Assembly: GCF_024609765.1 (NCBI RefSeq)
Contig: NZ_JANFDG010000001.1
Location: forward strand, 1-64,000
Length of the DNA stretch: 64,000 nucleotides
Reading direction: 5' to 3'
From: Shinella pollutisoli
Lineage (GTDB): Bacteria; Pseudomonadota; Alphaproteobacteria; Rhizobiales; Rhizobiaceae
The notes under the pieces were generated by a model. The model searched no databases and was not told where the DNA came from. It worked only from the letters and a program-made list of their open reading frames with translations. A program made the position numbers and the translations under genes. Of the stretch, positions 15,464 through 53,761 are shown one piece after another; position 1 is the first letter of the stretch, and each line of letters opens with the position of its first letter.

Positions 15464-16360
15464 GTGACCAATCTGGGCGATCTCGAAATCTTCTCCCGCG
15501 TCATTTCCACCGGCAGCATGTCGGCGGCCGGCCGCGCGCTGGGGCTCTCGCCCGCCGTCGTCTCCAAGCGGGTGAAGCGGCTGGAGGAGCGGCTCGGCAC
15601 GCGGCTCCTGCAGCGCACCACGCGGCAGATCTCGCTGACGGAGGCGGGACAGGGTTTTTACGAGCGCATCGTCGGCGTGCTCGCCGGCATCGAGGAGGCG
15701 GAGGCCTTCGTCTCCGGCCGCTCCGGCGCGGCGCGCGGGACGCTGCGCGTCTCCGCCCCCACCTCCTTCGGCCGCATGCACATCGCCCCGCATCTCAAGG
15801 GCTTCATGGACGCCCATCCGGAGCTGACGCTCAATATCGTGCTGACCGACGAGTTCTCCGACATCGTCGGCGGCGGCTTCGACCTCGCCATCCGCATCGG
15901 CGAGCTCAGCGATTCCTCGCTGGTGGCGCGGCGGCTGGCGCCGGTGCGCCGGGTGCTCTGCGCCACGCCCGGCTATCTCGAAAAGCACGGCACGCCGGGG
16001 ACGCTCGACGATCTCGCCGCCCATGTCTGCCTGCCGCAGCACACGCAGGACGTCTGGCGGCTAGAGGGACCGGACGGCAGCGTCGTCCACAAGCCGACCG
16101 GGCCGCTCGTCACCAATTCGAGCGAGGTCATCCGCGAGGCGGTGCTCTGCGGCATGGGGATCGCCCTACGCTCGACCTGGGACGTCGGGGCGGAGCTGAA
16201 GGACGGCCGGCTCGTGCAGGTGCTGCCGGGCTACGAGGGCTCGCGCAACGTCGTGCTCTCGGCGGTCTATCCGAGCCGGCAGTTCCTGCCGGTCAAGGTG
16301 CGCCTCTTCATCGACTACCTCGCCGAGCTGTACGGGCCGCTGCCCTATTGGGAGCGGTGA
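15464..16360 (+). CDS. LysR family transcriptional regulator
   Basis: A 298-residue LysR regulator: N-terminal winged helix-turn-helix (LEIFSRVISTGSMSAAGRALGLSPAVVSKRVKRLEERLGTRLLQRTTR split over residues 6-53) and a periplasmic-binding-like effector domain (GTLRVSAPTSFGRMHIAP, FDLAIRIGEL). It starts with GTG 104 bp from glcD on the opposite strand. The divergent layout suggests it controls glcDEF; the effector could be glycolate, but that is inference. The subgroup (DSDG/SLVARRLAPVRRVLCATPGYL) is the common CrgA-like type. Confidence 0.9.
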   Translation: MTNLGDLEIFSRVISTGSMSAAGRALGLSPAVVSKRVKRLEERLGTRLLQRTTRQISLTEAGQGFYERIVGVLAGIEEAEAFVSGRSGAARGTLRVSAPTSFGRMHIAPHLKGFMDAHPELTLNIVLTDEFSDIVGGGFDLAIRIGELSDSSLVARRLAPVRRVLCATPGYLEKHGTPGTLDDLAAHVCLPQHTQDVWRLEGPDGSVVHKPTGPLVTNSSEVIREAVLCGMGIALRSTWDVGAELKDGRLVQVLPGYEGSRNVVLSAVYPSRQFLPVKVRLFIDYLAELYGPLPYWER

Positions 16361-24160: not shown

Positions 24161-24457
24161 TCAATCCGGATGGCCGCAGCGCAGGTGGCGACGGGCGCGC
24201 TCGCGCGCAGCGATCGTCAGGTGCAGGCCGGCGTCGGAGAAGAAGGAGGACGTGATCGCCTCGCGGACGTCCTCGCGGGTCAGCCCCAGGTCGAGAAGCT
24301 GGCGGTCGTCGAGCTCGCGCAGGCGGTTGAGCGCGCCGCGGTTCAGCCATGCCCGGAGCACTTTCGAGGCGGCGTTGCCGAGGCGGGCGGCAAGCCCGGG
24401 CGCCGGCTTGCGGCCGGCAAGGATGTCGAGGTCGAGACTGCGGTCGATCATGCGCAT
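24161..24457 (-). CDS. DUF1127 domain protein (98 aa)
   Basis: A 98-residue Arg-rich protein with the DUF1127 signature near residues 45-66 (NRLRELDDRQLLDLGLTREDV) preceded by a typical W-x-N-R-G-A segment. Short DUF1127 proteins in alphaproteobacteria bind RNA or tune sRNA turnover and stress/phosphate/carbon metabolism. The ATG at 24457 follows AAAGGAG at good spacing; longer in-frame extensions lack a site. It is divergent from a LysR gene 137 bp away, so it is a plausible target. Confidence 0.8.
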   Translation of the reverse strand: MRMIDRSLDLDILAGRKPAPGLAARLGNAASKVLRAWLNRGALNRLRELDDRQLLDLGLTREDVREAITSSFFSDAGLHLTIAARERARRHLRCGHPD

Positions 24458-24594
24458 GGCATCTCTCCTTTCCGGCATGGCGCCCCTTCGCTCCTCGATG
24501 GGGTCGTGCCGTGCCCGCGATGTCGATCGCGTTTTCGCAGAAAGGCATTGATCAGTCCAACGAATGTTTCTAATAGTATCAATCAATCACTCTG

Positions 24595-25560
24595 ATGGGT
24601 AACGCCATGTCCGCACCGCTCGACATCGACCAGCTCCAGACCTTCGTCGCCATCGCCGACACCGGCAGCTTCACGCGGGCGGCCGAGCGGGTGTTCAAGA
24701 CGCAATCGGCGGTCTCCATGCAGATGCGCCGGCTGGAGGAGCGCATCGGCAAGCAGCTCTTCATGAAGGACGGGCGCGGCAACCGGCTGACCGCGGAGGG
24801 CGACCGGCTGCTCAACTACGCGCGCCGGATGATCCGCCTCAACAACGAGGCGATCGCCGCCTTCGACGACAACCGCCTGGAAGGCACGCTGCGCATCGGC
24901 ACGCCGGACGACTATGCCGACCGCTACATGCCGGAAATCATCATGCGCTTCGCCAAGACGCATCCGAACGTCGAGCTCTTCATCGTCTGCGAGCCTTCGG
25001 TCGACCTCGCGGAGAAGATGAACAGGGGCGAGCTCGACATCGCGCTCGTCACCCACAACCCGCGCCAGCGGCAATCCGACGTGGTGCGCACCGAGCCGCT
25101 CTGCTGGGTGATGTCGGCGAACCATCCGCTGCCGGAGAACGCGCCGGTGCCGCTCGCCGTCGGCCGGCGGGACTGTCAGTGGCGGCAGATCGCCTGCGCG
25201 GCGCTCGATTCGGTCGGGCGCGAATACCAGGTGCTGTTCACGAGCTGGTCGTCCACCGTCGTCGCCGCGGCGGTGATGGCGGGCATGGCGGTCTCGGTGC
25301 TGCCGGAATCGGCGCTGCGCCCGGGCATGAAGGTGCTGACCCAGGCCGACGGCTTCCCGCCGCTCGCCCCCGTGCAGATCGGCATCATGCGGCGGCCGGG
25401 GCTCTCGCCGTCGCTCTCCAACGCCATCACCAGCCACATCACGGCCTGTCTCGACAACATCACGCCGCTCGCCGGCAACGACGACCTGCCGGAGGCCGAG
25501 GTCAAGGTCTTCCCGCGCCTGCCGCGCCTCAGGCCCGGCCACATCCTGCCGGGCTGGTGA
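24595..25560 (+). CDS. LysR family transcriptional regulator
   Basis: A 321-residue LysR regulator: winged helix-turn-helix at residues ~8-65 (LQTFVAIADTGSFTRAAERVFKTQSAVSMQMRRLEERIG) and effector domain (GTLRIGTPDDYADRYMPEIIMRF). Two ATGs (24595 and 24607) are possible. The AT-rich intergenic with DUF1127 contains ATTGAT and ATCAATCA elements suited to T-N11-A LysR boxes. The C-terminal extension is Pro/Arg-rich. Effector unknown. Confidence 0.88.
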   Translation: MGNAMSAPLDIDQLQTFVAIADTGSFTRAAERVFKTQSAVSMQMRRLEERIGKQLFMKDGRGNRLTAEGDRLLNYARRMIRLNNEAIAAFDDNRLEGTLRIGTPDDYADRYMPEIIMRFAKTHPNVELFIVCEPSVDLAEKMNRGELDIALVTHNPRQRQSDVVRTEPLCWVMSANHPLPENAPVPLAVGRRDCQWRQIACAALDSVGREYQVLFTSWSSTVVAAAVMAGMAVSVLPESALRPGMKVLTQADGFPPLAPVQIGIMRRPGLSPSLSNAITSHITACLDNITPLAGNDDLPEAEVKVFPRLPRLRPGHILPGW

Positions 25561-49135: not shown

Positions 49136-49211
49136 ATCGTTCTCCCGGGCCGTTGCGTCAGCATTACGCCCTGCCCCACCGTCGAGAATAGAGGAAAACA
49201 GCGCGTCGATC

Positions 49212-49332
49212 CTTCTTCGCCCCGTTTACGGGGAGAGGATGCCGGCAGGCAGGTGAGGGGCGGAGTCGACTGGAGATGTCGCAATTGCCCCTCATCCCCC
49301 TGCCGGGACCTCTCCCCGCAAGCAGGGAGAAG
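49212..49332. repeat. RIME-type intergenic mosaic, block 8 (inside the mod operon)
   Basis: CTTCTTCGCCCCGTTTACGGGGAGAGG.., GGCAGGTGAGGGG, then CCCCTCATCCCCCTGCCGGG and CTCTCCCCGCAAGCAGGGAGAAG; a degenerate member in the modA-modB gap. Confidence 0.75.
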
Positions 49333-49368
49333 GAGCAAGAGGCGCACGCTCCTGTTACCGGCTCACGC

Positions 49369-50227: not shown

Positions 50228-50266
50228 AAACAGTCTGCGGCGGGGAAAGGCGGGTCCTGAAATGGA

Positions 50267-50420
50267 AAAGCCTGCCGCGGGAGGAGGTGCGGCAGGCTTT
50301 CCGATAGAACCGAACGGCGATTGGGAGGAGGAATATCGCCGTTCCCGCAGGCGTCCTTGGGAGGAGGAGTAGGCCGCCTGCAATATCGAAGCTTTGCGGG
50401 AGGAGGTGCATCGCTTCGAT
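50267..50420 (-). ncRNA. Four-hairpin CCUCCUCCC sRNA array (CcsR/cuckoo-type)
   Basis: Read on the minus strand, four tandem stem-loops each expose CCUCCUCCC in the loop: 50420-50385 (ATCGAAGC/GCTTCGAT), 50381-50347 (GCAGGCG/CGCCTGC), 50344-50312 (GAACGGCGAT/ATCGCCGTTC) and 50300-50267 (AAAGCCTGCCGC/GCGGCAGGCTTT, 12 bp). The last has a T-run after it and would terminate. This matches the alphaproteobacterial cuckoo/CcsR RNAs, which carry the anti-SD-like CUCCUCCC motif and are processed from a DUF1127 transcript; the DUF1127 gene is directly upstream (50609-50755). Confidence 0.75.
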
Positions 50421-50551
50421 AAATATGACTATATCTGACTCGCGCTCATTTGATAGGCATTATATTGCAATGCAGCTATGCGCTATGCGCTTATCGAATA
50501 ACTGGACCGGTGCCGGGACCAGCCTGCGAAGCGCTTCTTTTTGCAATGCAA

Positions 50552-50578
50552 AAACGCCCGCCGGAGGGGCGGGCGTTT
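50552..50578 (-). terminator. Hairpin between DUF1127 and the sRNA array
   Basis: AAACGCCCGCC (50552-50562) and GGCGGGCGTTT (50568-50578) with a T-run on the minus-strand 3' side. It would stop or partly attenuate the DUF1127 transcript before the sRNA array. Confidence 0.6.
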
Positions 50579-50608
50579 CAAAACCATGCCTTGCGGCCGG
50601 CGGTCGGA

Positions 50609-50755
50609 TCAGAAGCCGACGGCGGCGCGGGCGACCGTCTTGATCTCGGAGCGATTGATGCCGAGATCCTGGAGTTCGCGTGCGTTCATGCGGCTCAGCT
50701 CGTTGACGGTCTGACGATATTTGCGCCAATTGCTGAAGGAACGTGCCATGTTCAT
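50609..50755 (-). CDS. Small DUF1127 protein (48 aa, CcaF1-like)
   Basis: 48 residues: MNMARSFSNWRKYRQTVNELS then RMNARELQDLGINRSEIKTVARA, the compact DUF1127 form. ATG at 50755 has AAGGGGA upstream. In Rhodobacter the small DUF1127 protein CcaF1 is co-transcribed with and helps process the CcsR sRNAs; the same gene order is seen here. Role by analogy only. Confidence 0.75.
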   Translation of the reverse strand: MNMARSFSNWRKYRQTVNELSRMNARELQDLGINRSEIKTVARAAVGF

Positions 50756-51046
50756 GATGATCCCCTTTCCTGAGGCTCTCTGTTCGGCACCGTCCGTGGC
50801 GCCGCGTCTTTCGATGGCCTCCATATAGGCTCATGCTGCATTGCATAAAAGCGCGCAAGGAGCAGGACACCCATGCGGATGATGCATGGGTCCGGCAAGG
50901 TTTCGTTAAGGACGCAGTCGGGCGCCTTCCCCCGCGCCGCCCGCGGCGGCTGTCGGAACTGGTCGCGCGCTAGTCGCAGACAGGCTGAAACGGCAGGATG
51001 GCAGGCCCTAAGATCGGCTCGAACACTCCAAGCAGGGGCGCAAGCA

Positions 51047-53619: not shown

Positions 53620-53761
53620 CTTTGCCCCTCACCCTAACCCTCTCCCCGCAAGCGGGGAGAGGGGACCTGCCCTGCGAACGGTACCGGTCGAGGAAAACGA
53701 CGCGGCATCTCCCTTCTCCCCGCCTGCGGGGAGAAGGTGGCCGGCAGGCCGGATGAGGGGC
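53620..53761. repeat. RIME-type intergenic mosaic, block 9 (twin of block 2)
   Basis: CTCTCCCCGCAAGCGGGGAGAGG, the CTGCCCTGCGAACGGT spacer and CTTCTCCCCGCCTGCGGGGAGAAG ending GGATGAGGGG, like 7743-7871. Confidence 0.85.

Follow-up and report, generated by a model that had tools for sequence, protein, structure and literature searches.

Putative PhaR-type operators at a DUF1127 gene and four-hairpin ar14/cuckoo small RNA locus of Shinella

A short DUF1127 gene followed by four hairpins that share one loop sequence raises the question of what kind of RNA the hairpins form, whether gene and hairpins are transcribed together, and what controls them. We analysed such a locus in a 64,000-nucleotide stretch of Shinella pollutisoli DNA (the window) and in its relatives; comparisons with published systems draw on excerpts of the cited papers. 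The original prediction, made from the sequence alone, described a cuckoo-like array matching the ccaF1-ccsR arrangement of Rhodobacter and contained no regulatory boxes.

Four hairpins with one loop motif

The four-hairpin CCUCCUCCC array downstream of the DUF1127 gene is real. Its features are as follows.

50384..50421, minus strand: hairpin 1 (folding and covariation test; mostly outside the Rfam ar14 match)
50346..50381, minus strand: hairpin 2 (folding and covariation)
50310..50345, minus strand: hairpin 3 (folding and covariation)
50264..50302, minus strand: hairpin 4, likely also the terminator of the RNA, with a stem followed by UUUU (folding)
50263..50387, minus strand: Rfam ar14 match (108.6 bits, gathering cut-off 58.8, E 3.9e-19)
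50428..50433, minus strand: candidate -10 element TATAGT (TAT invariant in the 22 rows of the genus alignment)

The nine loop bases predicted to be common to all hairpins were found as four minus-strand copies of CCTCCTCCC (50398-50406, 50359-50367, 50323-50331 and 50279-50287), the sole four in the window. Their number is weak evidence in itself, because 2 of 100 shuffled windows also reached four (mean 1.07); spacing and folding carry the case. Folded singly, hairpins 1 to 4 gave -15.0, -17.0, -15.8 and -25.9 kcal/mol with the motif unpaired in each (z -5.4, -3.8, -3.9 and -6.9; equalled by 0 of 200 shuffles), and the 168-nt stretch folded whole gave exactly the same four hairpins (z -7.7). 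The RNA would start near 50421 and extend to hairpin 4.

Cuckoo/ar14 RNAs are widespread, and a 2015 paper reportedly describes the cuckoo family as two to four adjacent hairpins with the same loop motif and variable stems; the window has four adjacent hairpins, one loop motif and variable, covarying stems. The Rfam ar14 model (RF02344) was matched over its full length (1-123), above its gathering cut-off, by the last three hairpins, each with CCUCCUCCC in its loop, and the fourth hairpin lies 5′ of the match. Since these three hairpins correspond to ar14, and CCUCCUCCC RNAs with four hairpins have been on record since 2011, the window RNA belongs, by sequence, to the already known ar14/cuckoo kind, as had been predicted. 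The 2011 report described three- and four-hairpin CCUCCUCCC families in S. meliloti together with their kinship to Rhodobacter RNA (PMC3927594). With the SmelA099 four-hairpin/cuckoo family the window shares a run of neighbouring CCUCCUCCC hairpins, three or four in number, whose stems vary; at the level of the RNA we found no difference, and an operator link is unmentioned in the excerpt of that report (PMC3927594).

Matches to ar14 above the cut-off occurred in all 21 genus genomes searched, and 22 loci from these 21 genomes (one genome having two) with the DUF1127-terminator-four-hairpin arrangement were aligned. The original prediction had suggested counting compensatory changes among relatives. 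In a set of 19 loci drawn from the 22 of the genus, with 18 distinct rows, 10 of 45 base pairs were changed on both sides (0/500 shuffles; slid controls 0-2), and among the window plus 93 distinct named four-motif loci listed the figure was 24 of 43 (0/500 shuffles). The named loci were collected by searching named genomes for a hairpin-1 pattern, which yielded at least 119 stretches; all 119 listed ones were examined. Four motifs, counted as CCTCCTCC, were present in 101 of them and fewer in 18. The full nine bases were kept in hairpins 2, 3 and 4 of 97, 99 and 101 of the 101 listed four-motif loci, the loop of hairpin 1 being uninformative in this count because the search pattern fixed it; the same pattern fixed one side of the outer stem of hairpin 1 and partly accounts for its low variation. 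The stems covary and the loops stay the same, which, as the original prediction had argued, points to selection on the loops. Searching with the pattern TGCTGCANTGCAGCA was uninformative: it matched 30 places on each strand, the backward control matched 18, and many of the 15 examined lay inside long ORFs. Arrays with eight or nine hairpin motifs, above the family's usual two to four, were seen under a relaxed filter in three order-level relatives (L213, L222 and L255).

Hairpin 4 is terminator-like, and the hairpins might on that account be read as protein-binding sites in DNA or RNA, or as a set of terminators, instead of a trans-acting RNA. We consider this very improbable: a U-run follows hairpin 4 only, the loops are nearly invariant while the stems covary as RNA, and the related RNAs are expressed and act by silencing mRNAs (PMC10746234).

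The DUF1127 gene, its terminator and the Rhodobacter comparison

The unit upstream of the array consists of two features, both of which had been predicted.

50609..50755, minus strand: DUF1127 gene, 48 aa, starting MNMARSF (Pfam PF06568, E 1.5e-15)
50551..50579, minus strand: intrinsic terminator of the DUF1127 gene (12-bp GC stem, then a T-run)

The start and ribosome-binding site of the gene are conserved in the 22-locus genus alignment, and the short DUF1127 gene beside the RNAs, a feature of the Rhodobacter CIN1 locus, is kept in the 22 loci aligned. By eye, the terminator stem is visible in all 22 rows, with the T-run broken in 2. Between this terminator and hairpin 1 lies a spacer of about 130 nt with a conserved promoter-like block.

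In Rhodobacter, ccaF1 and four CcsR RNAs share a single RpoHI/RpoHII transcript, which has its terminator at the 3′ end and is cleaved by RNase E (PMC10253847). The window shares with ccaF1-ccsR1-4 (Rhodobacter sphaeroides, CIN1 locus) a DUF1127 gene followed by four CCUCCUCCC-type RNAs; it differs in its intervening terminator, where Rhodobacter has a single RNase E-cut transcript (PMC10253847). The predicted match thus stood for gene order and the DUF1127 association and failed for co-transcription, as the window has both an internal terminator at 50551-50579 and the promoter-like block, judged from sequence features. The Rhodobacter comparison was therefore half right: by terminator and promoter-like block, the locus appears to combine Rhodobacter gene order with an NfeR1-like transcription logic.

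Relatives nearer than ccaF1-ccsR are, by sequence, ar14/NfeR1 and the four-hairpin SmelA099 family. In Sinorhizobium, NfeR1 silences mRNAs by anti-Shine-Dalgarno (aSD) pairing through three redundant loops (PMC10746234). The window resembles ar14/NfeR1 (RF02344, S. meliloti) in its ultraconserved CCUCCUCCC aSD loops, in having its own promoter, which at the window is represented by the conserved promoter-like block, and in a candidate LsrB-like site, of relaxed sequence, at the same distance (PMC10746234). It differs in having four hairpins instead of three, a DUF1127 gene directly upstream, and the PhaR-type boxes described below, such boxes being unmentioned for NfeR1 in the excerpt of that report (PMC10746234).

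How far the Rhodobacter form extends was assessed in two further samples. Among 199 genomes of the order, 63 had a match; loci from 46 of the 62 besides the window's own genome were used, 16 weak matches being omitted. These gave 49 loci, of which 41 had an array by our filter and eight were dropped before counting. In 26 of the 41 arrays, including three from the family to which the window belongs, the DUF1127 stop lies 21-131 nt before the first hairpin, so that an operon-like form is common in the order. Together with the shared gene order, this would fit an operon of the ccaF1-ccsR type at the window, in which a transcript from the DUF1127 promoter reads through, RNase E frees the hairpins and the DUF1127 protein aids their maturation. 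We judge this unlikely for the window, where the units are kept apart by a strong terminator together with some 130 nt of conserved, promoter-like sequence, and a terminator-like structure was likewise present in 51 of the 65 listed named loci with an upstream DUF1127 gene (absent in 14). Two separate transcription units are preferred here. A same-strand DUF1127 gene preceded the array in 61 of the 105 named loci listed with at least 700 nt upstream (44 were without one), its stop lying 85-211 nt before hairpin 1 in those 61. Nine further Shinella arrays had no DUF1127 match in the flanks examined.

On the other side of the array, modA (solute-binding protein, Pfam SBP_bac_11) starts about 120 nt on, so that the adjacency noted in the original prediction exists; a fixed modA link was rejected, a modA match being present in the examined flanks of 10 of the 22 genus loci.

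Other DUF1127 genes have been shown to act on phosphate and carbon metabolism. For DUF1127 proteins, published activities include the binding of RNA (CcaF1) and of a sensor kinase (PhoR, Agrobacterium) (PMC12501420). In the DUF1127 leader, ahead of the ribosome-binding site, an inverted repeat at window positions 50785-50805 is conserved in almost every genus locus of the alignment. This repeat may serve as a regulator within the leader; for S. meliloti, an attenuator in a DUF1127 leader has been described (PMC12218461).

Two other parts of the window may be described here. A second DUF1127-domain ORF (24161-24586, minus strand) is divergent to an LrhA-like LysR regulator gene (24595-25560, plus strand); the best PhaR matrix score near this ORF was 6.8, and the LysR gene is not claimed to be LsrB, its best solved match being LrhA. 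Intergenic palindromic repeats rich in GGGGAGAGG/CCTCTCCCC lie at 49205-49340 and 53620-53760, and resemble rhizobial mosaic elements.

PhaR-type boxes and an LsrB-like site

PhaR is a repressor of phasin genes, among others; its ligands are polyhydroxybutyrate and DNA, including the promoter of the small RNA MmgR (PMC12542648). At the present locus, one palindrome was seen repeatedly in the promoters. We built a position matrix for PhaR (AniA) from 28 sites in S. meliloti promoters shifted by PhaR in EMSA (PMC12542648, Table 3) and called boxes at a score of at least 13. Left out in turn, the training sites scored a median of 20.1 (range -0.6 to 26.9). The matrix is imperfect, because one left-out site scores -0.6 and binding at multi-site promoters was shown for the promoter as a whole. 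In the window, only three positions reached 13, all at the array locus; the next best score was 11.2.

50831..50851, no strand assigned: PhaR-type operator in the DUF1127 promoter, immediately before the -10-like CTATAT at 50823-50828 (score 22.5, rank 2)
50536..50556, no strand assigned: PhaR-type operator overlapping the T-run of the DUF1127 terminator (score 23.3, rank 1)
50460..50480, no strand assigned: PhaR-type operator upstream of the RNA (score 19.0, rank 3)
50478..50491, minus strand: LsrB-like site HGCR-N6-GCAT, about -71 from the first hairpin, matching the spacing of the nfeR1 LsrB site

By the matrix, the 21-bp palindromic operator of the PhaR regulon is thus found at three window sites, each one base off the exact published consensus. 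The Bradyrhizobium PhaR consensus, which was derived from aligned promoters and DNase footprinting (PMC6201568), is independent of the matrix. This consensus, TGCRNYGCASMA, is exact in the DUF1127-promoter box, alone among the three, and occurs once elsewhere in the window, at 15609. A PhaR gene is present in the same genome, and both of its phasin genes, taken as positive controls, have two sites each (22.8/16.6 and 25.9/24.7). Two DUF1127 genes of the genome that lack an array had no box of at least 13 (best 12.1 and 6.8).

Within the genus, the DUF1127 promoter scored at least 13 in 20 of the 22 loci and the RNA upstream region in 9 of 22. NfeR1-type tandem loci of the genus, most of which have two DUF1127 genes downstream, carried 3-5 boxes in 19 of 21; one (L013) had one box within the stretch examined, and another (L021) was left out of the scoring for having too few motifs by our filter. 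The own-genome tandem locus, on contig C6 at about 82500-84100 (L001/L069), consists of a tandem ar14 RNA pair and, after it, two DUF1127 genes; four PhaR-type boxes scoring 14.6-24.9 lie there within some 1.3 kb. PhaR-type palindromes on or beside terminator T-runs were seen at window positions 50536-50556 and at the tandem loci of the genus. In most Shinella relatives, by eye, the palindrome after the DUF1127 terminator is one central base longer (TTTTTGCATGTGCGAA) and does not fit PhaR.

In the named genomes, 59 of the 115 distinct RNA upstream regions listed had a box of at least 13 (shuffles, 1.1%), and, relative to hairpin 1, the boxes of those 59 all fell in the bins -55 to -64 or -80 to -84. 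Named DUF1127 promoters had such a strong box in 8 of the 63 listed, the six named among them being all Shinella. Across the order, a box lay within 600 nt upstream of 29 of the 41 cuckoo arrays and was absent there from 12; 500 column-permuted palindromic matrices gave a mean of 0.60 (maximum 15) and 100 shuffles a mean of 0.49 (maximum 2). The upstream zones held 48 boxes in 24,092 nt; the other 103,812 nt of these loci held 15, of which 12 adjoin further arrays or DUF1127 genes. The footprint consensus was found in 22 of the 41 zones, with 31 matches against 5 elsewhere (200 shuffles, mean 0.17, maximum 2; backward control, 0). Outside the order, five of six array loci had a box scoring 18-25 and the sixth scored 12.9; these six, drawn from 14 matching genomes among 289, one of the 14 being the window's own, represent two families and include two near-identical loci of one genus.

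Box counts such as these are not independent events, because the loci are related by descent, while the placement of boxes at the DUF1127 promoter, near -60, near -80 and on terminator tails argues against a single inherited chance match. With one mismatch allowed, the published PhaR consensus was not enriched genome-wide (247 places against 351 in the backward control), so the evidence for PhaR consists of the matrix and positional tests. As a sequence association the PhaR link is strong, whereas PhaR regulation itself is predicted. This link is the new part of the analysis: we found no report connecting PhaR to cuckoo RNA/DUF1127 loci among the open-licence papers listed in our searches, where the one paper naming both DUF1127 and PhaR was a taxonomic study of Rhodovulum. 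A published parallel is PhaR-MmgR of Sinorhizobium meliloti, likewise a small RNA with a PhaR operator, although MmgR belongs to another RNA family and its binding was shown by EMSA, whereas the operator at the window is predicted (PMC12542648). SMc02051 is a PhaR-repressed gene near nfeR1 (PMC12542648, PMC7143759).

A regulator other than PhaR may also be considered for these boxes. NtrC is a known regulator of NfeR1, with the site TGC-N11-GCA. LsrB activates nfeR1 from a site, TGCA-N6-GCAT, at -72 to -57 (PMC10746234). The LsrB-like site of the window fits the relaxed form HGCR-N6-GCAT near -71 and does not match the exact TGCA half; the relaxed site was present in 65 of the 115 named RNA upstream regions listed, in 64 of them at -70/-71. 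As this site abuts the RNA box, which is placed where a LysR activation site could be, the boxes might serve as a second site for, say, a LysR protein of the LsrB type. We hold that to be doubtful, though a shade less so than read-through from the DUF1127 promoter, as the box scores equal those of EMSA-positive PhaR promoters, the phasin controls fit, and DUF1127 promoters and further positions carry boxes as well. PhaR remains the preferred candidate for the boxes.

A predicted link between carbon storage and translation

We propose a two-unit locus, a model that as a whole we consider fairly probable. One unit would give the 48-aa DUF1127 protein and the other a trans-acting ar14/cuckoo small RNA of about 160 nt. 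Each of its four redundant CCUCCUCCC loops would pair with strong Shine-Dalgarno sequences and block translation of the targets, by analogy with NfeR1 of Sinorhizobium. PhaR (AniA) would bind the boxes just upstream of the DUF1127 -10 element and of the RNA promoter and repress both units, and LsrB, bound at the LsrB-like site, would activate the RNA. Build-up of polyhydroxybutyrate would titrate PhaR off the DNA and release RNA and DUF1127 protein together, and the released RNA would turn down uptake and metabolic mRNAs. A search of the own genome for the full complement, GGGAGGAGG-N3-9-ATG, gave 6 places against 1 in the control, which is suggestive of targets. Pfam assigned five of the six candidates to DUF779, no family, an AraC regulator, an ABC permease and an acyl-CoA dehydrogenase; the sixth (L267), an unlikely ORF, was left out of this check. 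Counted against the model are the frequencies of the RNA upstream box in the genus (9/22) and of the strong DUF1127-promoter box among the named promoters listed (8/63), as well as the boxes on terminator tails, whereas PhaR sites usually sit in promoters.

Across the Alphaproteobacteria, we lean slightly towards reading the cuckoo/ar14 aSD RNAs and their DUF1127 partners as an unrecognised branch of the PhaR regulon, through which polyhydroxybutyrate would switch on a multi-target translation brake together with a small regulatory protein. In the split form of the operon, of which Shinella is an example, boxes occur at both promoters. If true, much of the cuckoo/ar14 family would receive a common input, carbon storage, through a conserved PhaR operator. 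The link would also help to explain why DUF1127 genes travel with these RNAs, and it would couple the storage of carbon to a brake on translation.
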